DNA of 64,000 nt from Terriglobia bacterium. Its GTDB lineage: Bacteria; Acidobacteriota; Terriglobia; Bryobacterales; Bryobacteraceae. The first letter of the stretch is position 1, and every line of letters begins with the position of its first letter. Positions 1,609-15,856 of this stretch are shown piece after piece. The stretch spans positions 62,001 to 126,000 of the forward strand of contig JANYDS010000023.1 of NCBI GenBank assembly GCA_025363475.1, given 5' to 3'. The notes below the pieces were generated by a model. It was not told where the DNA came from and ran no database searches. It saw nothing but the letters and a program-made list of their open reading frames with translations. Made by a program: the position numbers and the translations under genes.

Positions 1609-2388
1609 TTATTGTACGTCGGGATAGTGAATCGGAAGGGCGATAATCTGGCCCATCGGTAATATCCGGAGTGTGACCTGACCGGGTCGTTCACTGCTGC
1701 CTGTGAACGTTATAATTGCCACGGTAGATTCGTCAGCGCCAAGATCGGGCTTAGCGATCTCAATTGTGAGAGCTGGTGGGCTATTGATAGATTGTACCGT
1801 GACGGGACCCGGCAGGAAGTTCTTGAGCTTAATGATCTGCACCGCCGGTGGTTTCGCCAGATCTAACTCAATGATCATCGGGTCAGCGTGCACACCATCC
1901 ATGAGGCCGGCAGTGGATATTCTCTCTTTTAGTGTCGCCAAGTCCTGGGTTGCCCCGCTTCCTTTTTCCTTCACTCTGCCGAAGGGAGTATCGAGTAATT
2001 TATCCCGGTCAATATACCAGCACCACTCACCGCGTTCAATCTTCCAATAGCTGGCAAAGGGTATGTTCATAACTTGGGGCGGTGCGCCGGGAATCATGAT
2101 CTGCATTCTCGATGCGAGAGTTACTTTGGCGGTCTGAAAATCGGGTGTGTACTGAATTTCAGTGATCTCTATGGTGCGGAGGTCAGGCTTGCGGGATTCG
2201 TAATAGAAATCTTTGGTATCGGCTGCAACCAACTGCTCTGCTTGCCGGAATTTGCGATCAACCTGAAGCTGATAGAAATCCTCGATTCGCGCACGAAGCG
2301 CAGCGTCCACTTCCGGCGGCGGATCGGCAGCGGAAAGAGTGACAGCGAGGGAAAGACCTACAAGGACGGCAGATCGGAGAAATCGCAT
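1609..2388 (-). CDS. Secreted protein of unknown function, NTF2-like N-terminus plus beta-rich tail
   Basis: A 259-aa protein I do not recognise as a named family. It has a clear signal peptide: a basic start, a hydrophobic stretch ending near LSAADP, with cleavage expected near residue 21. Residues 25-140 look like a small alpha+beta domain of NTF2-like type (RIEDFYQLQVDRKFRQAEQLV, then YWKIERGEWCWYIDRD), a fold used in many periplasmic proteins. Residues 170-259 are beta-rich (KLKNFLPGPVTVQSINS, then a strand-dense tail), somewhat like DUF1573 or ASH-type domains. It is convergent with the pseudopilins and lies downstream of another secreted protein on the same strand, from which it is separated by a strong terminator. 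I make no specific function claim. Confidence 0.65.
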   Translation of the reverse strand: MRFLRSAVLVGLSLAVTLSAADPPPEVDAALRARIEDFYQLQVDRKFRQAEQLVAADTKDFYYESRKPDLRTIEITEIQYTPDFQTAKVTLASRMQIMIPGAPPQVMNIPFASYWKIERGEWCWYIDRDKLLDTPFGRVKEKGSGATQDLATLKERISTAGLMDGVHADPMIIELDLAKPPAVQIIKLKNFLPGPVTVQSINSPPALTIEIAKPDLGADESTVAIITFTGSSERPGQVTLRILPMGQIIALPIHYPDVQ

Positions 2389-2424
2389 AGTGGTCCGAGA
2401 TAAAAGGCAGGGTACAAATGAAAA

Positions 2425-2452
2425 TGGAGGGAGCGCCTAAGCGCTCCCTCCA
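2425..2452 (-). terminator. Rho-independent terminator of the 521-aa secreted protein gene
   Basis: A perfect 12-bp stem (TGGAGGGAGCGC paired with its complement) with a 4-nt loop. On the minus strand it is followed by ATTTTCATTTG. It lies 20 nt past the stop codon of the minus-strand gene that ends at 2473. Confidence 0.85.
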
Positions 2453-2472
2453 GATTGTTGACAGCTTTTAAG

Positions 2473-4038
2473 TTAGTTGGACGCGACGTTCGGAGTTGCT
2501 GCGCCAGCGGTTGAGAGAACAACGGCAAGGTAGTCAGCCGAGAGCCCGCGACCACCACCACCGAAACCGTCGGTAACGAAGGCATAGCCGTGTGCACCCT
2601 GGAAGTTGCAGGTTGCGACGGCATAACCGGCGAGACCAGCCGCTTTATCGGAGACGACGAGAACTGCAACTTTACCGGTCGCAATCGTGCCGGTGCTGTA
2701 GGCAACCGGCGCTGTTGCCGTGCCGTTGTCGCCGTAGAAGGCAACAGAGCAGGAACCAGCCGTTGGGGTCACAGCAGGGAGGCCCGTGCCCGTGGAGGCA
2801 TTGGCAATCGCGATACCTGTGTCATATCCGCCCGAGTTCACCACGTACGGGAACAGGAGGGTGGTGGAGCAAGCGGTAACGAGGCCATTCGTGGCAACAA
2901 CTGCCGGAGCCGTCGTGGTGGCCGGGGTGGCTGTAACGTACTGCGGATAGCCAGAGGTGCCGCCAGCGAGTGAAACCTGAGCCGTAATGCTGGGGGTCAG
3001 AACAGTCGTGACGTTTGAGACGCTCGGGATGTTCTGTTTGAGTGGAATCGAGAACGAATCGATCGCCGCGAGTGAATCCGCCGTGATTTCGTAGTAGATG
3101 GTGGCTGAGGAACCAGTCGGAGTCAGAAGAACCTGACCGGTCACGGCCGGGGTACCAACCGAAACGCCAGAGGCGAGGACAGCACCGGTTGCAGTGAGGG
3201 AGGCAACGGCAGTCACGGTGCCATTCGTGATTGTGAACGGTACGTAGTAGTTGACATTGGCATTGAGATTATTAAACGTAATTGCGAGACGTGTGCCCCG
3301 CGCAGCTGCGTTGGAGCCGACAACGGCCTGTTCAGTCTTCGTCTTAAACGCGGCAGCAAAGTTTTCCTGCACGGTCAAGGTGGTGATGGTGGGGGTGGAG
3401 GTGATGGTCGCGGTGCAAAGCGAAACATCAGCGCCGCTTACCAGCGTGGAAGGAACAACCGACGTCAGGACATATGCAGCGGTGAGGGTATTAACACCCG
3501 TGGTGAGAATTGCTCCACCAGCTACACCTGTCGCGGTTACGGTAACCGTTGAGCTACTGGGAACGCTGGACGCATTAACCCGGGTACCCGAGGCGGTGAT
3601 GCTGTTGAGTTGCAGGCCGTTGAGGCTAAAAACCGCCGTCAGCGATGCGCCGGATTCCGAGACACTCGAGGCAGGAATGGTGCCAGTTGCGGCAGCTAAA
3701 ACGGTTACACCGTTGGCAATGATGGTTGCGCCGGTATTATTGGTTGCATTTGCGGTAACGACCACGTCCAAAATGCCTGAGGTTGCGGTGGTGGTGGTGT
3801 TCGTCAGCGGAACGTTCGCGTTGAGCACCACCGTGGCTGCATTTACTGCGTTAGGGGCGACAGTGTTGCAAGTCAGGGTGATTGCGCCCAGCGCTTCCGT
3901 GGTACCTTCCACGGCGACGATCGGCGTGGTAGCCGTGGAAAGCGTGGTGCAGGTCGCCGTCGGCGTCTGTGCGTTTGCAGCGCCGACGAGTCCAAGACCC
4001 GCGACCGCAAACATTGCTACTTTTTTAAAATCGAACAT
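2473..4038 (-). CDS. Large secreted Ala/Thr/Val-rich surface protein, Solibacter-type C-terminal domain
   Basis: A 521-aa protein with a signal peptide (hydrophobic core FAVAGLGLVGAANA, cut after AQ near residue 24). The mature part is very rich in Ala, Thr, Val, Ser and Asn, with almost no charged residues and alternating hydrophobic/polar strands, as in beta-sandwich adhesins or S-layer-like proteins. The last 130 residues (LLFPYVVNSGGYDTGIAIAN, then GSCSVAFYGDN, then CNFQGAHGYAFVTDG) match, from memory, a domain found in many secreted proteins of Solibacter-like Acidobacteria whose role is unknown. Conserved Cys pairs suggest disulfides. The Shine-Dalgarno AAGGAGA lies about 13 nt before the ATG. 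A strong terminator closes the gene, which appears to be transcribed alone and is probably well expressed. Confidence 0.7.
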   Translation of the reverse strand: MFDFKKVAMFAVAGLGLVGAANAQTPTATCTTLSTATTPIVAVEGTTEALGAITLTCNTVAPNAVNAATVVLNANVPLTNTTTTATSGILDVVVTANATNNTGATIIANGVTVLAAATGTIPASSVSESGASLTAVFSLNGLQLNSITASGTRVNASSVPSSSTVTVTATGVAGGAILTTGVNTLTAAYVLTSVVPSTLVSGADVSLCTATITSTPTITTLTVQENFAAAFKTKTEQAVVGSNAAARGTRLAITFNNLNANVNYYVPFTITNGTVTAVASLTATGAVLASGVSVGTPAVTGQVLLTPTGSSATIYYEITADSLAAIDSFSIPLKQNIPSVSNVTTVLTPSITAQVSLAGGTSGYPQYVTATPATTTAPAVVATNGLVTACSTTLLFPYVVNSGGYDTGIAIANASTGTGLPAVTPTAGSCSVAFYGDNGTATAPVAYSTGTIATGKVAVLVVSDKAAGLAGYAVATCNFQGAHGYAFVTDGFGGGGRGLSADYLAVVLSTAGAATPNVASN

Positions 4039-4379
4039 TCTGTATGTGTTTCTCCTTGAAAGTTTAGTGAATCGGTCGAAGTCCCTGCAACCTGAGCCTC
4101 AACTACAACGATATAGCTTTGTACTGCCCAGTTTGAACTTCTCCGTGTCGGGCGGAGTTTTGAAGCTACCAGCTCTTCCTCAAGTGGTCGAACTAGCGGT
4201 ACATCTTGATCAGTGCGGGCTTTTTATTTTTAGCTGCCACCCGCTACTGGAACTATTAAAACGTTTGACGACTCGGAAACCTCTACTTCAGGGTCTCCGG
4301 AATATTCATCACAGTCTGAACTATACCAGGTCCAGTACCCAAGTGCAAGTTGTTTCGTCCCTGGATGGAAAAAACTTAA
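4039..4379. other. Intergenic stretch of about 340 bp with no gene found
   Basis: This is the leader of the secreted-protein gene (Shine-Dalgarno at 4051-4057, minus strand) and the space below the tRNA gene. The rest is more A+T-rich than its surroundings. A T-run on the minus strand just past the tRNA 3' end (AGTTTTTTCC, about 4368-4377) could assist termination but has no hairpin. I see no convincing promoter, RNA gene or repeat. Confidence 0.5.
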
Positions 4380-4456
4380 TGGTAGGCGCGGCAGGGCTCG
4401 AACCTGCGACCCTTAGCTTAGAAGGCTAATGCTCTATCCAGCTGAGCTACGCGCCC
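4380..4456 (-). tRNA. tRNA-Arg (anticodon TCT)
   Basis: On the minus strand the sequence begins GGGCGCGTAGCTCAGC and folds as a full cloverleaf. It has a 7-bp acceptor stem (one G-U pair at the end), a D-arm with AGCTGGAT, an anticodon arm TTAGC-CTTCTAA-GCTAA with anticodon TCT, a variable loop, and a T-arm with GGTTCGAGCC. The CCA tail is encoded (4380-4382). It reads AGA codons, which are rare in a high-G+C genome. The 5' end overlaps the last 23 nt of fliJ on the same strand, so it is probably transcribed as the tail of the flagellar operon and released by RNase P. Confidence 0.95.
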
Positions 4457-4889
4457 GTCGTTTTAACGATTGTAGCCTGACCAGACTGGCTTCGTCGGCG
4501 AAGATTCCCAGTTCCCGGTCTGATTCCCGCTGCCATTGGTTTCTTGCGCTTTGTTTTAGATTTTCCAGCAACTTCACTCCCCGGTTTGCCTCCACCAGCT
4601 GGCTGATCGTGATATCCGCAGCTTGTTGGGCCTCATTGGCTTCGTTTCGCAGATTTCGTATGTGGCGGTCTGTGCGGAATGCGAAATCTGGCCATGCCGC
4701 CAGTGCCGTCCCGTCCGGTTGGCGGGAAAGATCCTTCGCTCCTTGTTCTTTTTTTTCGGCTTCCGCCCTTAGTTCCACACGCAATGCGGTGACATGCGCG
4801 GCCGCAGCAAGCACCTTCGCCTTTTGCAGCGCCACCTGGGTCTCTCGCCACCGAAGAGCCTGGCCCAGCCGGAAAGAAAACGCCTTCAC
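4434..4889 (-). CDS. fliJ: FliJ-like flagellar export protein
   Basis: 151 aa, nearly all alpha-helical and rich in Ala, Glu, Arg and Gln, with heptad-like spacing of a long coiled coil (ALRWRETQVALQKAKVLAAA near the N-terminus). FliJ is the central stalk-like subunit of the flagellar export ATPase, threading into the FliI ring and contacting FlhA. FliJ proteins are poorly conserved in sequence; the call rests on size, coiled-coil character and position directly after fliI (3 nt gap), where fliJ normally sits. The stop codon TAG at 4434-4436 lies inside the D-arm of the tRNA-Arg gene, so the last residues (KRRARSSAG) are encoded by tRNA sequence. Confidence 0.8.
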   Translation of the reverse strand: MKAFSFRLGQALRWRETQVALQKAKVLAAAAHVTALRVELRAEAEKKEQGAKDLSRQPDGTALAAWPDFAFRTDRHIRNLRNEANEAQQAADITISQLVEANRGVKLLENLKQSARNQWQRESDRELGIFADEASLVRLQSLKRRARSSAG

Positions 4890-4892
4890 CGC

Positions 4893-6230
4893 CTAAACCA
4901 TACCGGCCAGCGCACCCATCTGTCGCAAGGTCTCATCCATGCATGCCACATCGGAGGGAGCCTGTCTCAAGAACCGCATCACTTCATCGCGGGACCGCAG
5001 TACGGTGTCCAGTTTGGGATTTGAGCCCGAGACATACGCCCCCAGATTGATCAGGTCTTCCGAATGGCGGTAGAGTGCGAGCGCTTCCCGGATTCTCCGC
5101 GCGTGATCTGACTGCGCCGGAGTGGCAAGGCGTGACTGCAATCTGCTCACGGAATCCAACACCTGAATCGCTGGATAGTGTCCAGCCGCGCCCAGTTCCC
5201 TGGCCAGTGTGATGTGGCCGTCCAGAATGGCCCGGACGGCATCGCAGATCGGTTCATTGAAATCATCGCCTTCCACCAGGACGGTAAAGAACGCGGTAAT
5301 CGACCCGTGGTGAAAATTCCCCGCCCGCTCGCAGACTTTGGGCAACAGGTTGAAGACCGAGGGCGTATAGCCCTTCTGACTAGGCGGCTCCCCCGCCGCA
5401 AGACCAATCTCGCGCTGCGCCATGGCAAGTCGCGTAATGGAATCCATGACAAGCAGAACATCTTCACCCTGATCGCGGAAATACTCCGCAATCGCCAGCG
5501 CCACGAAACAAGCACGAACCCTTAACGGAGCGGGCCGGTCAGAAGTCGCCACCACTACCACCGAACGCCGCATCCCCTCCGGCCCCAGATCATGTTCCAG
5601 AAATGATGGCACCTCGCGATTTCGTTCCCCAATCAACGCAATCACATTGACGCCCGCCGCACTCGAGCGAGCCATGGACCCCAGCAGCGTACTTTTACCC
5701 ACACCGCTGCCGCCGAAAATACCAATCCGCTGACCTTTGCCGCAGGTAAGCAGTCCATCAATCACGCGGATCCCTGTGGCCAGGGGTTCGTCGATTTGTT
5801 TACGGTCGAGCGGTCCCGGTGGTTGCGCGTAGAGGGAACGGGTCTCCTTTGCATGAAGGGGCGGGCCGTTGTCGATCGGATTGCCGAAACCGTCGAGTAC
5901 GCGCCCCAGCAGTTCGGGGCAAACACCCACGTCGCCCTCGCCGCCGCGCGCCAGAACGCGGTCGCCCAGACACAAACCGCCGGTTTCTTCGAGCGGCATG
6001 GAGAGCACACGGCCATCACGGAACCCAATCACCTGGGTACGAATCGCCCGGCCATCGCGCGTGTGGACTTCGCAGAAGTCGCCGATGGCGGCGGCGGGAC
6101 CACGCGATTCCACAATCAGTCCCACAAGTTCTACAACCTCGCCTTCCATGCGCATCGGCTGAATGCGACTGAGCGCCATTTCGTAACGACTCAGGTCAAG
6201 ATCGGGTTCGTATGCAAGGCTGGTGGTCAT
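4893..6230 (-). CDS. fliI: Flagellar export ATPase FliI
   Basis: 445 aa, the normal length. It resembles the F1 beta subunit: an N-terminal beta-barrel (1-100), a P-loop GGSGVGKST at about 173-181, Walker B VLLVMDS at about 258-264 followed by ITRLAMAQREIGLAAGEPP, and a C-terminal helical domain. FliI is a hexameric cytoplasmic ATPase that, with FliH and FliJ, unloads export substrates and their chaperones at the export gate. It lies between fliH (2 nt gap upstream) and fliJ in the usual fliFGHIJ order. All catalytic motifs are intact. Confidence 0.97.
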   Translation of the reverse strand: MTTSLAYEPDLDLSRYEMALSRIQPMRMEGEVVELVGLIVESRGPAAAIGDFCEVHTRDGRAIRTQVIGFRDGRVLSMPLEETGGLCLGDRVLARGGEGDVGVCPELLGRVLDGFGNPIDNGPPLHAKETRSLYAQPPGPLDRKQIDEPLATGIRVIDGLLTCGKGQRIGIFGGSGVGKSTLLGSMARSSAAGVNVIALIGERNREVPSFLEHDLGPEGMRRSVVVVATSDRPAPLRVRACFVALAIAEYFRDQGEDVLLVMDSITRLAMAQREIGLAAGEPPSQKGYTPSVFNLLPKVCERAGNFHHGSITAFFTVLVEGDDFNEPICDAVRAILDGHITLARELGAAGHYPAIQVLDSVSRLQSRLATPAQSDHARRIREALALYRHSEDLINLGAYVSGSNPKLDTVLRSRDEVMRFLRQAPSDVACMDETLRQMGALAGMV

Positions 6231-6232
6231 AG

Positions 6233-6886
6233 TTAGCTAGACACGGCGATTCGGTCGGTCAGTCCCCGTGTGATTTCCTCCAGCTGGGCCTCAACAGAGG
6301 CATCGATAATCCCTTCGGGTGAACGAATCGTCAAAGTACCAGGCGCGCAAGTCACATCACCCTCAATACGGACACGCGTCATCTGGCTGGCCGGCAGTGC
6401 GGCGGTGATGGCCGCGGCAAAGCGCGGATGTACGGTCACTTCATAAGATTCCGACCGGGTGAGTCGCTCAAAAGCTACGCGCGCGATGGCGGTGAGTGCC
6501 CCCTCATCCACTGTCAGTTCGCGGTGCAGGACCCGTTTCGCAATCATCAGCGCGAGGCGTACTACGTCTTTTTCGGCTCTGCTGCGGAGGTCAGACCGGA
6601 GCCCTATTAAGTCGCTCAATGCCGCGTTCATGCGCTCGATTACCGGTTGCAGTTCCGCATGAGCTTGCTGCAGACCCTGCTGCAGGCCCGATTCCAGAGC
6701 TTCACCGCAGGCGACAAGCTGTTCATGCTCCATGCGGAGCACGGTCTCCCGGAACTCGGTGCGCAGTTCATCGTCTCCTGTCCCCATGCCCCGGTCCGCG
6801 TGCGGGTGGCTTGTTCCGTTCAGAACAGGAAACACGACGGCCGTAGCGCTGGTTACCGCGCGGCCTGAGATGACCTTAGACAACAT
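6233..6886 (-). CDS. fliH: Flagellar export ATPase regulator FliH
   Basis: 217 aa. The centre is a long helical stretch (EHEQLVACGEALESGLQQGL), followed by a C-terminal FliH/VPS domain with the typical VVRLALMIAKRVLHRELTVD motif and a beta-rich end (VRIEGDVTCAPGTLTIRSP). FliH dimerises, binds FliI, and links it to FliN at the C ring and to FlhA. The start overlaps the end of fliG by 11 nt, suggesting translational coupling. The first 40 residues are not conserved and a later start is possible. Confidence 0.93.
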   Translation of the reverse strand: MLSKVISGRAVTSATAVVFPVLNGTSHPHADRGMGTGDDELRTEFRETVLRMEHEQLVACGEALESGLQQGLQQAHAELQPVIERMNAALSDLIGLRSDLRSRAEKDVVRLALMIAKRVLHRELTVDEGALTAIARVAFERLTRSESYEVTVHPRFAAAITAALPASQMTRVRIEGDVTCAPGTLTIRSPEGIIDASVEAQLEEITRGLTDRIAVSS

Positions 6887-7907
6887 ATTGTTCGCCCACG
6901 GTGCCCTTCAGTGAAATGGTGCCTTCGGTTTCCAGGTGCCGCACTACAGAAATAATTTGCTGCTGCGCGCCTTGCACTTCTTTGATCCGGACGGGCCCTA
7001 GTGATTCCATTTCTTCCTTCATCATTTCCTGCGCGCGGGCGGACATGGTGCCGAGGAAGTGATCGCGAAGTTGTTCGCTGGTGCCTTTGAGAGCCAGGGT
7101 CAGGACTTTGCGGTCGACCTTGTCCATGACCAGTTTGAGTTGATTGACGTCAATCAACAGCAGATCTTCAAACACGAACATCAGGTGCCGGATGGTTTCC
7201 ACCAGGTTCGGATTCTGGGGTTCGATGACGTCGAGAATCTCCCGGCTGGTAACGGAATCGAGCCGGTTGAACATTTCAGCCACGGCGCGAATACCGCCAT
7301 ACGATTCGCGACTAAACTCGCCGATGGCTTGCAGCTTTTGCCCGATGACGGAGGCAATCTTGTTGACGATTTCGGGTGAAATCTGGTCGAGATTTCCCAT
7401 GCGCAATGCTACGTCCGCGCGGATTTGCGCAGGCAGGGAAACCAGCAGGGCCGCAGCCTGCGAAGCGTTGAGATGCGAAAGCACCAGGGCGATGGTTTGG
7501 GGGTGTTCGTTGTGGATGAATTTGGCGAGTTGCTGGGGGTCAACCTTTTGCAGCAGCTCAAGGCTGGCATATTCGCCGCCCATGGCTTTTGAAAGGCGGC
7601 CGATCAGCTTCTTTGAAACTTCCGGGCTAAAGGCATGGATCAGCATTTTTTTTGCATATTCCATGCCACCGCGCACAACATAGTCGTGCGCCATGTTCAT
7701 CTGGTAGAACTCTTCCAGCAGGTAGTCGGCGTTCTCTGTAGAGATGGATTCGATCCGCGCAATTTCACGGCTCACCATCTGCACTTCGTCTTCAGACAAC
7801 TGTTTGATGATTTCGGCGCTGCACTTATCTCCCAGGAGCACCAGCATCATGGCAGCTTTGCGGATGCCCGTCAGATTCTCAGCAGGCGGGGCTGCGTTGG
7901 CAATCAC
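6876..7907 (-). CDS. fliG: Flagellar motor switch protein FliG
   Basis: 343 aa. It has the three FliG domains: N-terminal FliF-binding (about 10-110, KAAMMLVLLG), middle domain with the EHPQ motif at about 134-137 that binds FliM, and a C-terminal torque domain with MFVFEDL at about 243-249 and the charged helix QLRDHFLGTMSARAQEMMKE. FliG sits on the MS ring and couples stator force to rotation. It is flanked by fliF (40 bp gap) and fliH (overlap) in the standard order. Nothing is missing from the switch residues I can see. Confidence 0.97.
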   Translation of the reverse strand: MIANAAPPAENLTGIRKAAMMLVLLGDKCSAEIIKQLSEDEVQMVSREIARIESISTENADYLLEEFYQMNMAHDYVVRGGMEYAKKMLIHAFSPEVSKKLIGRLSKAMGGEYASLELLQKVDPQQLAKFIHNEHPQTIALVLSHLNASQAAALLVSLPAQIRADVALRMGNLDQISPEIVNKIASVIGQKLQAIGEFSRESYGGIRAVAEMFNRLDSVTSREILDVIEPQNPNLVETIRHLMFVFEDLLLIDVNQLKLVMDKVDRKVLTLALKGTSEQLRDHFLGTMSARAQEMMKEEMESLGPVRIKEVQGAQQQIISVVRHLETEGTISLKGTVGEQYVV

Positions 7908-10878: not shown

Positions 10879-12405
10879 CTAACCCTTGAGCAGGGAGAGC
10901 ACGGCCTGGGGAGCTGAATTTGCCTGTGCGAGTGCGGCCAGCGACGCCTGCTGGAGCACCTGAGCTTTCGTGAGATTCGCCGCTTCGGCGGCGACATCCG
11001 CGTCGCGGATTCCCGCCTGAGCCGCTGAATAGTTAGTGATCTGCGACTGGGCGAGATTGACGGCGTAGTTCAGTTTGTTGATGCCGGCGCCGACGGTACC
11101 CTGCACCAGGCCGATGTTGTTGACGGCGGTCGCAAGCAGCGCCAGTGCCGAAATCGCACTGCCCGTGTTTGAGGCCCCGGCGGCAGGGGCGGTTACGGTG
11201 AGTGCACCCGTGGCACCGAACAGGTTACCCGCGCCGCCGCCGGAACCAGCCGTGAAGGCAGTTTCATTGACGCTAAAGACGTTGGAACTCTGGAAAGAAA
11301 TATTGGCACCGGCTGGGTTTTTGACGGCGCTAATACCGGTGCCGGCCAGGGCGGTGTTCAGCGTCGCGAGCGCTTGGGTCAGCGTGCCGGCATTCGTGTC
11401 GTTGAGCGTTATGGTTTTGGTAGCACCGGCGTTTTGGAAAACGATGCTTTCCGTGGTCGCCACGCCACCGCCGAGTGTGAAGGGTACGAACGCACCACCT
11501 GCAGCGGTTGAGCTGTCGAGGTTGTAGTTTGCCGTGTTAACCGCAGTGGCAGCGGCTGTTGCTGCTGCGTTGCCTGCGCTGGCAGCCCCGGCCGTGAGGG
11601 TAAAGGCAGTACTGCCGCCGAACTGCAGGACTCCGGCACTCGAAATGGAGGCGCTGATGCCATAGGCGGAGAGGGAATTGTTGAGACTGCTGATGACCTG
11701 CGTCCCGCTCAGGCCGCTGCTGCCGCCGGTTACACCCACCGCAACATCCGTATTACCGGTACTGGTGGCGATATGGAATGTGAAGGTTTGCGTGCCGCTG
11801 ACCAGGAAGGAAATAGCGGAGTCGTCGAGGCGTACCGTGTTGCCTGCGAGTGCCGCACCTCCGCCCTGCACGCTGGTGGTGCTGATGCCCAGACCCGCGG
11901 TATCGACAGCGTTGTTGGAACCACCAAGATCGACCGAAACTTGGGCGTTGGCGGAATTGCTGCCACCTCCCGTATACGTGACGAGGGTGGTATTGAAAGT
12001 GCCGCCTGTGTTCAGCAGGACGTTCGATGCCTGCCGGTTGACCTCTGTCAGCAGACCCTGGTATTCGTTGTTGAGTGTGGTGCGATTTCCGGTGAAAGTT
12101 GAAGAGGCCGATTCGGTGGCCAGCGTGCGCAGGCGGTCTATAATGTGGGAAATATTATTTAGTCCGCCATCAATAATTTGCAGCGCGCTGACACCGTTGT
12201 TGGCGTTGAGCACGCCTTGTGTCAGCTCGGCCGTGTCGCCCCTGTATTTGTTGGCGACGGCTAGGCCGGCGGCGTCGTCGGCCGAGGAATTGATCCGATA
12301 ACCCGACGAAAGCTGATTGATTGTGTTGCTTTGAAATGCCGTGTTCGTGCGGATATTGTTTTGGGCGACGAGCGAGGCGACGTTGGTTTGGATTGAGAGC
12401 GACAT
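10879..12405 (-). CDS. fliC: Flagellin 1
   Basis: 508 aa. The N-terminal D0/D1 domain has the flagellin signature (SIQTNVASLVAQNNIRTN, then INSSADDAAGLAVANKYRGD), as does the C-terminal D1/D0 helix (YSAAQAGIRDADVAAEAANL, ending QANSAPQAVLSLLKG). The middle (about 140-400) is Ala/Thr/Ser/Gly-rich and exposed in the filament. It is a close paralogue of flagellin 2, with the same length and highly similar ends. The leader ends in AAGGACGCAAAGAATG, identical to flagellin 2. The upstream sigma-54-type promoter differs from the sigma-28 type of flagellin 2, suggesting different timing or amount. It is exported by the flagellar gate with FliS as chaperone. Confidence 0.97.
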   Translation of the reverse strand: MSLSIQTNVASLVAQNNIRTNTAFQSNTINQLSSGYRINSSADDAAGLAVANKYRGDTAELTQGVLNANNGVSALQIIDGGLNNISHIIDRLRTLATESASSTFTGNRTTLNNEYQGLLTEVNRQASNVLLNTGGTFNTTLVTYTGGGSNSANAQVSVDLGGSNNAVDTAGLGISTTSVQGGGAALAGNTVRLDDSAISFLVSGTQTFTFHIATSTGNTDVAVGVTGGSSGLSGTQVISSLNNSLSAYGISASISSAGVLQFGGSTAFTLTAGAASAGNAAATAAATAVNTANYNLDSSTAAGGAFVPFTLGGGVATTESIVFQNAGATKTITLNDTNAGTLTQALATLNTALAGTGISAVKNPAGANISFQSSNVFSVNETAFTAGSGGGAGNLFGATGALTVTAPAAGASNTGSAISALALLATAVNNIGLVQGTVGAGINKLNYAVNLAQSQITNYSAAQAGIRDADVAAEAANLTKAQVLQQASLAALAQANSAPQAVLSLLKG

Positions 12406-12865: not shown

Positions 12866-14239
12866 CTATTTGGAAGTGCTGGAATAGCCAGTAAAGGACG
12901 CGAAAAGCCCTTTCACGTATGTGACCTGACTTTCGAGGAGGGCGATGGCCGCATCGGCTTTCGCGACTTGCGCGGTCAGATTGGTCTGGAGCTGGGTAAT
13001 GGTTTCCTGCTGGTTGGCGATTTTGGCTTTTTGCGAAGTCAGCTGCGTTGCAATGGAACTCTCGCGGGTAGGCAAGAGGCCAGTGACTGAATTTTCGACG
13101 CCGGCAATTAAATCGGTTGCTGTTTTGAGAAAGCCGCTGGTGCTGGAACCGCCGAGAGTGGTGAGAAAACCCGCGAAATCAGCGGCCGCAGCGGTTGAAA
13201 GCGCGGTTGTGTCAACGGACAAATGGCCGTTCCGTTCGACCGTGATTCCGAAGTTCGCAAGTGCATTGGCCGCCGATCCGCCGCTGTAGTTACCCAGTTG
13301 TCCCAGGACTCCAGACAGCGCTTGCAAAACACTGTCACCTTGCAGCGCGCCGGCATTCTTACCCCGCTGCGCAACAATGGCATCGCTCGCCGAATTGAAA
13401 GCCTGGGCAAAGCCACTAAATGCGGAAGCAAGCGAGGAAGAATCATGACTTATGGTGACGTTGGCCGTGCTGCCGGAAACGCTTTGACCGAGGAGCGTAA
13501 CGGTCAGCCCGGGTGAAAGCGTGACGGTGCGGGAATCGCTGCTAATGACGTTGGTTCGGTCAATTTTGTACGTGGCCAGCGACCCGGCTGTGGAGTTGTA
13601 GATCAGATCCGCGCCCAGGGAATCTGTCAAAGTGATGGCGTCAGAGCCGAGCTTGACCGCGCGAAGAGACAGACGATAGTCCGGGGCTGCAGTGGACCCG
13701 ACATTGAGAACGGTAGCCTGGGTCTGGCCGCTCAACTGCGTATTGATGGCGCTCACCAGATCCTGCAGTGAGCCCGAAGCCGGAGTCAGTGTGGTCACAG
13801 AACTTCCGATCGTCAGTGTCACGGATGGTGCACTGGTAATCCCCTGTGTTGTCACATCGGTAACTGCGGAACTACCTGGCTTGCTGAGCGCTGCGGAGAA
13901 GGAGCCGAGGCTCGTGACTTCAATGGGATAGACGCCGGGCGCAGCCGTCGATTGAATATTGGCGCTGATCACCGAGCCATCCGAAATGGAGGAACTCAGG
14001 ATTTTGGTACTAACCGCGTCCTGCAGAGAACTGACCGCGATCTGGAGTGCAGAGAAGTTTGTATCGAGACCCTGCAGCGCTGCTGAAGTCCGACTGAGGG
14101 CGTTGTATCCATTTGTCAGCGAAGTAAGCGGGAGGGAGGCAATGCCTACTGACCGGTTGAGCACCTGCTGCAGGCCGGCGGCATAGGTGCTGGTTCCCGC
14201 GAAACCCAGCGGAGCGATTGTTGATACCAAATCTGCCAT
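12866..14239 (-). CDS. fliD: Flagellar filament cap protein FliD
   Basis: 457 aa. The N-terminal FliD domain (GTSTYAAGLQQVLNRSVGIA, LTSLTNGYNALSRTSAALQG) is followed by beta-rich outer domains, and the C-terminal coiled coil (SSIATQLTSQKAKIANQQET ... ITQLQTNLTAQVAKADAAIA) ends in VTYVKGLFASFTGY. FliD forms the cap at the filament tip under which flagellin folds. It lies between the two flagellin genes, with the fliT-like gene downstream. A G+C-rich hairpin sits in its leader. Confidence 0.94.
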   Translation of the reverse strand: MADLVSTIAPLGFAGTSTYAAGLQQVLNRSVGIASLPLTSLTNGYNALSRTSAALQGLDTNFSALQIAVSSLQDAVSTKILSSSISDGSVISANIQSTAAPGVYPIEVTSLGSFSAALSKPGSSAVTDVTTQGITSAPSVTLTIGSSVTTLTPASGSLQDLVSAINTQLSGQTQATVLNVGSTAAPDYRLSLRAVKLGSDAITLTDSLGADLIYNSTAGSLATYKIDRTNVISSDSRTVTLSPGLTVTLLGQSVSGSTANVTISHDSSSLASAFSGFAQAFNSASDAIVAQRGKNAGALQGDSVLQALSGVLGQLGNYSGGSAANALANFGITVERNGHLSVDTTALSTAAAADFAGFLTTLGGSSTSGFLKTATDLIAGVENSVTGLLPTRESSIATQLTSQKAKIANQQETITQLQTNLTAQVAKADAAIALLESQVTYVKGLFASFTGYSSTSK

Positions 14240-14329: not shown

Positions 14330-15856
14330 TTATCCTCTCAGGAGCGCAAGTACCGCCTGCGGAGCGGAATTTGCCTGTGCCAGCGCAGCGAGTGAAGCCT
14401 GCTGGAGCACCTGCGCTTTGGTAAGGTTCGCCGCTTGTGCCGCCACATCAGCATCGCGAATACCTGCTTGCGCCGCTGAATAGTTGGTGATCTGCGACTG
14501 AGCCAGATTGGAGGCGTAGTTGAGTTTGTTAATGCCACCACCGACCGTGCCCTGAACAAGACCAAGGTTGGTAACTGCCGCAGCAAGCAGCGCCAGCGCT
14601 GAAATCGCGCTTCCGGTATTGGACGCACCTGCAGCCGGCCCGGCCACCGTGACTGCGCCGGTTGCACCGAACAGGTTCCCGGCACCACCACCAGAGCCGG
14701 CGGTAAATGCCGTTTCGTTGACACTAAATGCATTGGAGCTTTGAAACGAAATATTGTTTCCGTTAGCAGTCTTCACCGCGTTGATTCCAGTTCCAGCCAG
14801 CGCCGTGTTCAATGTAGAGAGCGCCTGGGTCAAACTGCCGGCGTTCGTATCATTCAACGAAATGGTCTTGGTTGCTCCGGCGTTTTGGAACACAACCGTC
14901 TCCGCTGTCGCCACACCACCACCCAGGGTGAAGGCAACAAACGCACCACCTGCTCCTATGGAACTGTCCAGATTGTGGTTCGCTGTATTTACGGCCGTCG
15001 AAGCATTCGTTGCCACGGCATTGCCCGCGCTGGCGGCACCGACCGTAGCGGTGAAGGCTGTACTGCCACCAAACTGGAGGACACCCGCACTCGAAATGGA
15101 TGAACTGATACCGTAAGCCGAGAGAGAGTTATTGAGACTGCTGATCGCCTGTGTCCCGGTCAATCCGCTGCTGCCACCCGTGACGGCAACAGTCACATCC
15201 GAATTGCCGGTGCTGGTTGCGATGTGAAACGTAAAGTTCTGCGTACCGCTCGTCACGAATGAAGTCGCTGTGTTGTCCAGACGCACGATGTTACCGGTTA
15301 AGCCGGTTCCGCCGCCCTGCACACTGGTCGTGCTGATGCCAAGCCCCGCCGAATCAACCGCGTTGTTCGCCCCGCTCAAATCCACCGAGACCTGCGCATT
15401 GGCAGTATTGCTGCCGCCGCCCGTATAGGTAACCAGGTTGGTGTTGTAGGTGCCACCAGTATCGAGATGGACGTTGGACGCCTGGCGGTTGATTTCCGTC
15501 AACAACCCCTGGTATTCATTATTTAGAGTGGTTCTGTTCCCCGTGAAGGTCGAGGACGCGGATTCCGTCGCAAGTGTCCGGAGACGGTCAACGATGTTGG
15601 AGATGTTATTCAGTCCGCCATCAATGATCTGGAGTGCCGCGACACCGTTGCCAGCGTTTTGCACGCCCTGCGTGAGTTCTGCGGTATCACCCCGGTACTT
15701 GTTGGCAACGGCGAGGCCCGCCGCGTCGTCCGCAGACGAATTGATCCGGAAGCCTGAAGAAAGCTGCTGAATCGTATTGGCCTGAAATGCACTGTTGGTG
15801 CGGATGTTGTTCTGTGCGACAAGTGAAGCTACGTTGGTTTGAATCGATAACGACAT
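14330..15856 (-). CDS. fliC: Flagellin 2
   Basis: 508 aa, the same length as flagellin 1. The N-terminal D0/D1 (INSSADDAAGLAVANKYRGD) and C-terminal D0 motifs (QANSAPQAVLALLRG) are nearly identical to flagellin 1, with many substitutions in the central surface domain. A filament built from two flagellins is likely. The gene lies directly downstream of fliW-csrA. Its leader carries AAGGACGCAAAGAATG, in which the Shine-Dalgarno includes a GGA that CsrA could bind. A sigma-28-type promoter overlaps the end of csrA. Codon use is smoother and richer in C/G third positions than in flagellin 1. Confidence 0.97.
   Translation of the reverse strand: MSLSIQTNVASLVAQNNIRTNSAFQANTIQQLSSGFRINSSADDAAGLAVANKYRGDTAELTQGVQNAGNGVAALQIIDGGLNNISNIVDRLRTLATESASSTFTGNRTTLNNEYQGLLTEINRQASNVHLDTGGTYNTNLVTYTGGGSNTANAQVSVDLSGANNAVDSAGLGISTTSVQGGGTGLTGNIVRLDNTATSFVTSGTQNFTFHIATSTGNSDVTVAVTGGSSGLTGTQAISSLNNSLSAYGISSSISSAGVLQFGGSTAFTATVGAASAGNAVATNASTAVNTANHNLDSSIGAGGAFVAFTLGGGVATAETVVFQNAGATKTISLNDTNAGSLTQALSTLNTALAGTGINAVKTANGNNISFQSSNAFSVNETAFTAGSGGGAGNLFGATGAVTVAGPAAGASNTGSAISALALLAAAVTNLGLVQGTVGGGINKLNYASNLAQSQITNYSAAQAGIRDADVAAQAANLTKAQVLQQASLAALAQANSAPQAVLALLRG

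Follow-up and report, generated by a model that had tools for sequence, protein, structure and literature searches.

The closest described system is the overlap of selB with selC, the gene for tRNA-Sec: in Dyella and Luteibacter the selB stop codon lies inside tRNA-Sec, at nucleotides 46-48, and in closely related strains a stop that has arisen further upstream does away with the overlap (Mukai 2021, PMC8124441). Formation of non-stop mRNA by tRNA processing has been raised there as a hypothesis only, and among the literature matches listed this was the one direct precedent (PMC8124441). A second relevant pattern is that of type I 3' UTR-derived RNAs such as DapZ: they have a promoter separate from that of the upstream gene, lying within the end of that gene or immediately behind it, and are transcribed independently of it (PMC8383071). 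Overlaps of tRNA genes with protein genes are also described, as reported at second hand, for animal mitochondria (Doublet 2015, cited in PMC8124441).

The junction between the flagellar gene fliJ and the gene for tRNA-Arg(TCT) examined here combines two of these known patterns, the overlap of the selB-selC type and the promoter of the type I 3' RNAs, the latter as a prediction. Like selB, fliJ enters a downstream tRNA gene on the same strand and has its stop inside it, and the overlap is lost in relatives. Gene and tRNA serve one pathway in the selB-selC case and the tRNA frequently lies wholly within the gene, whereas fliJ and tRNA-Arg(TCT) are unrelated and overlap by 10 or 23 nt; unlike at selB-selC, a tRNA promoter within the protein gene is indicated. 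tRNA-Arg(TCT) resembles DapZ and other type I RNAs in having a putative promoter of its own in the end of the upstream gene, but differs in that the RNA is a tRNA and contains the stop codon of the protein gene. Mitochondrial overlaps are like the fliJ junction in that excision of the tRNA competes with an intact message. We know of no separate promoters for the mitochondrial tRNAs that overlap protein genes.

The window, that is, the whole stretch analysed, comprises 64,000 nt of contig JANYDS010000023.1 from a Terriglobia bacterium (assembly GCA_025363475.1). On its minus strand, fliF, fliG, fliH, fliI and fliJ follow one another at tight spacing, and tRNA-Arg(TCT) comes next (Table 1). The original prediction placed the fliJ stop in the D-arm of this tRNA, with a 23-nt same-strand overlap, and ARAGORN, Rfam and the ORF coordinates confirm both points: the TAG corresponds to tRNA nucleotides 21-23, in the D loop, and the overlap encodes the FliJ tail R-A-R-S-S-A-G plus the stop, with the first of these codons partly outside it. 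The Pfam FliJ match is weak and under the curated cut-off (E 0.0028; 18.3 bits against 28.4), and the ORF after fliI is identified as a divergent fliJ by its position in the fliFGHI run, its similar length in relatives and this weak match. Among 45 tRNA genes identified in the draft assembly (96 contigs, 96% complete), tRNA-Arg(TCT) is the sole one with a TCT anticodon, and its earlier description as a rare-codon tRNA suits the codon usage of fliF-fliI, in which AGA accounts for 5 of 119 arginine codons. The folding of the junction was not more stable than that of shuffled sequences (z 0.55). Elsewhere in the window, a filament-cap-like gene (12866-14239) lies between two flagellin-like genes that closely resemble each other and encode 508 aa each (10879-12405 and 14330-15856), all three named by eye.

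Table 1 Features at the fliJ-tRNA junction (window coordinates)
Feature	Position	Strand	Details
fliI	4893..6230	-	3 nt upstream of fliJ; bait for syntenic loci
fliJ	4434..4889	-	151 aa; GTG start; TAG stop 4436-4434 inside tRNA-Arg(TCT)
TACAAT, predicted -10 of the tRNA promoter	4469..4474	-	starts 18 nt before tRNA nucleotide 1
fliJ/tRNA-Arg(TCT) overlap	4434..4456	-	23 nt, same strand
tRNA-Arg(TCT)	4380..4456	-	CCA encoded; ARAGORN; Rfam RF00005, 69.8 bits, exceeds gathering score

To place the junction among relatives, we merged two sets of loci: a FliJ query matched 28 of 61 genomes, its own included, and a FliI query gave 367 confirmed loci, of which the best 80 were taken; the record titles assign all of these to Acidobacteriota but for one, which reads Nevskia. 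With the FliI set limited to those best 80 of 367, tRNA-Arg(TCT) adjoins fliJ on the same strand at 14 loci (the window, G001-G010, G015, G032 and L078), and at a 15th, in G012, it adjoins fliJ but is inverted. Through G032, the adjacency extends to another genus of the same family. The overlap varies in size, being 23 nt at five of the 14 same-strand loci (the window, G003, G004, G008 and G015) and 10 nt at six (G002, G005, G006, G009, G010 and L078), and the remaining three have no overlap and gaps of 8, 15 and 18 nt (G001, G007 and G032). These loci are related by descent, and the counts are therefore not independent. The fliJ tail itself differs in both length and sequence among relatives. 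Since the junction is common to relatives, it is not a local assembly error.

The original prediction had treated a conserved fliJ stop further upstream in relatives as evidence against it, and on this point the loci divide: four members of the genus (G013, G014, G017 and G018) have a fliJ without an adjacent tRNA that ends at its own stop, and three of the same-strand loci have the gaps just described, but 11 of the 14, from separate genomes, have the in-frame stop within the tRNA. No FliJ match (E 0.001) and no FliI match (E 1e-60) was obtained in G011 (83% complete) or G016 (96%), and ARAGORN found no tRNA in loci L025-L032 and L034. On a midpoint-rooted FliI tree of 42 rows (one of them, L074, from a contig that ends directly after fliI), a single well-supported group of 21 contains the adjacent loci together with six rows not scored as adjacent; overlap and gap states are interleaved, and the tree gives no single origin of the overlap. 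From these sequences the adjacency looks old in the clade, with an overlap that comes and goes. The same tree groups L078 (NZ_CAJCHS010000134.1), a record titled Nevskia soli, with Bryobacterales (99/96 support with L076), and the record name is thus probably wrong.

A promoter-like hexamer precedes the tRNA with far greater regularity than the overlap. TACAAT or TAGAAT occurs 15-31 nt before the tRNA at all 14 loci of the genus (12 with same-strand adjacency plus G012 and G018), starting at -18 in nine, at -19 in three and at -15 and -31 in one each, and the base two positions ahead of it is G in every case (14/14). As a control, we searched a wider stretch (-90 to +60 around the stop) of 58 fliJ ends without a tRNA, which are the 67 no-tRNA loci of the 80 minus nine dropped for ORF length or flank, and found the hexamer in two. 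In G032 and L078, the adjacent loci that lie outside the genus or lack a genus assignment, the hexamer is TAGACT, at -21 and -24, and similar hexamers occupy nearly the same position before other tRNA-Arg(TCT) copies outside the genus, for example TACGAT at -17 (G041, G042, G043, G045 and G046). There are exceptions: G013, of the same genus, G048 and G050 have no TA...T hexamer that begins in the 35 nt before the tRNA, and a second tRNA-Arg(TCT) copy in G007 has only TAACTT upstream.

The position of the hexamer relative to the fliJ reading frame varies. Read as (C)TA-CAA-T in the window, it takes the form xTA-CAA-T at nine loci (first residue Leu, Ile or Val) and xxT-ACA-AT at two, lies outside fliJ at two and forms the stop codon at one (G007), all by eye; the TAG of the hexamer is the fliJ stop in both G007 (TAGAAT) and G032 (TAGACT). 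Because the word stays constant across these phases, selection apparently acts on the DNA and not on the peptide. Codon choice points the same way, with the aligned codon being Leu CTA in 7 of 11 tRNA-adjacent genes (the inverted G012 included) versus none of seven others. CTA makes up 1 of 168 leucine codons in fliF-fliI of the window versus 46 of 1,185 in fliJ genes without the tRNA, and fliJ of the window carries a second CTA elsewhere; since fliJ genes use CTA at an appreciable rate, we regard the codon evidence as supportive only.

Similar hexamers precede other tRNA genes of this genome: TA.A[ACT]T starts at -35 to -11 in 18 of 45 and at -60 to -36 in 5 of 45, compared with 9 of the 357 windows between -61 and -260 that served as controls, and it is missing at -35 to -11 in 27 of the 45. 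In the same genome, a tRNA-Gln(TTG) and a predicted tRNA-Sec(TCA) on opposite strands have a short upstream region in common (L175, G000:C81), as judged from the reverse complementarity of their upstream strings. The main weakness of reading the hexamer before tRNA-Arg(TCT) as a promoter is the missing -35 match, with hexamers at 16-19 nt spacing agreeing with TTGACA at three of six positions at most, together with a consensus scan for promoters that found none on either strand between 3900 and 5000. By the extended -10 rule, the conserved G ahead of the hexamer could be part of an extended -10 element.

In two genomes tRNA and fliJ have been parted naturally. In G012 (L017, tRNA at 1356-1432) the tRNA is inverted, convergent with fliJ and placed behind a different ORF, and it keeps CTACAAT with the hexamer at -18. 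In G018 (L188) it is on the fliJ strand, some 5.2 kb further on, beside a divergent ORF, and keeps ATACAAT, again with the hexamer at -18; fliJ there has CTG-CAT, not CTA-CAA. The G018 interval (about 2187-7388) contains a short gene pair, which we take to be BrnT/BrnA-like, and two opposite-strand ORFs; a long TonB-receptor-like ORF was also noticed in it by eye. A third genome, G016, has tRNA-Arg(TCT) at 95% identity and no detectable fliI or fliJ, and no match to the tRNA was obtained at E 1e-18 in G011, G014 and G017. The hexamer is thus conserved independently of the reading phase and of fliJ itself, it survives inversion and separation, and the tRNA persists in G016, leaving the proposed coupling of tRNA release to flagellar transcription unsupported.

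The location of the fliJ stop follows from the tRNA sequence. In all 33 copies of tRNA-Arg(TCT) examined, TAG at nucleotides 8-10, TAG at 21-23 and TAA at 37-39 close all three frames, so that any ORF entering this tRNA must end within it and the D-arm location of the fliJ stop carries no extra meaning. Nor is fliJ alone in this genome: a gene for an X-Pro dipeptidyl-peptidase-like protein (Pfam PF02129 and PF08530) ends 10 nt into a same-strand tRNA-Cys(GCA) (locus L051, G000:C52 near 139638-139709), bringing the tRNA genes entered by a recognisable same-strand gene to at least 2 of 45. A mechanically defined ORF of at least 60 aa enters 19 of the 45, fliJ included; Pfam was applied to three such ORFs besides fliJ, of which the peptidase was matched and the other two had no match.

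Taken together, these comparisons make it very likely that the fliJ tail contains a dedicated promoter for tRNA-Arg(TCT) and that the overlap is a drifting by-product of tight packing, in which the fliJ stop slides to the next stop. Under this explanation, the tRNA directly after the fliFGHIJ run would be transcribed from a promoter whose -10 element, TACAAT, lies within the 3' end of fliJ, and the precursor would start with a short leader, which we infer to be about 5-7 nt and which RNase P would remove, as is known from tRNA biology. The variable fliJ tail among relatives indicates that loss of fliJ's own stop is tolerated, the end then falling in the tRNA; the stop would drift, lying before the tRNA in some species, and elsewhere fliJ would end at the first in-frame tRNA stop, at nucleotides 8-10 or 21-23. 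From known tRNA processing, RNase P would also remove the fliJ stop from any transcript reading into the tRNA: flagellar read-through transcripts would be cut at 4457/4456, leaving fliJ ends without a stop, and tmRNA, which is present, would rescue the ribosomes stalled on them. Such non-stop fliJ is probably a minor cost and not a regulatory circuit. A switch built from the same parts, in which read-through from active flagellar genes occludes the tRNA promoter, RNase P removes the fliJ stop, FliJ yield depends on a contest between tRNA folding and ribosomes that terminate in the D-arm, and tmRNA destroys the rest, is in our estimate very unlikely.

The original prediction amounts to a tRNA that comes mainly from the flagellar transcript, its excision cutting off the fliJ stop so that tRNA supply is tied to flagellar transcription and fliJ messages are non-stop. 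The tight spacing of fliF to fliJ on one strand is compatible with it, as are the presence of tmRNA and an intrinsic terminator search of 3900-5000 that returned no site on the minus strand and a single one on the plus strand, and a closely similar model, not backed by experiment, has been put forward for a tRNA-Sec gene lying within selB (PMC8124441). However, the promoter-like hexamer stays with the tRNA when it is parted from fliJ, the overlap is missing at three of the 14 same-strand loci, and G016, at 96% completeness, keeps the tRNA with neither a FliJ nor a FliI match at the thresholds given above. Since a single TCT gene was detected in the genome, its dependence on a conditionally expressed gene run also seems unlikely. 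A separate tRNA promoter, named in the original prediction as a finding that would count against it, is represented at the level of sequence by the conserved hexamer, and we consider supply mainly from the flagellar transcript highly improbable.

Between these positions stands a mixed supply, with the internal promoter providing the bulk of the tRNA and read-through either adding to it or interfering through occlusion and some non-stop fliJ, to small selected effect. The geometry would carry RNA polymerase from fliJ over the tRNA promoter, and the adjacency has outlasted divergence of the genus and reaches the second genus of the family; yet neither the size nor the presence of the overlap is conserved, G013, G014, G017 and G018 lack the adjacency, and nothing pointed to selection for the overlap as such, which together make a mixed supply unlikely. 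A true fliJ end upstream of the tRNA, with an overlap created only by ORF calling or by a frameshift in the assembly, can be dismissed almost entirely: some relatives do have stops upstream of the tRNA, but the frame is open across the junction at 11 of 14 same-strand loci, in separate genomes and with two discrete overlap sizes.

An internal promoter with a drifting overlap, the explanation that we favour, reveals no new regulatory system. What the junction offers is a neat case from nature in which a promoter-like element, the predicted -10 of a tRNA, is written in the tail of a protein gene, where it survives different reading phases of fliJ and even the departure of the tRNA from the gene. 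It also illustrates how neighbouring genes whose ends drift are caught by a tRNA through the stop codons of its D-arm and anticodon loop; gene-calling software that shortens or disallows ORFs overlapping a tRNA would misplace the C-termini concerned.
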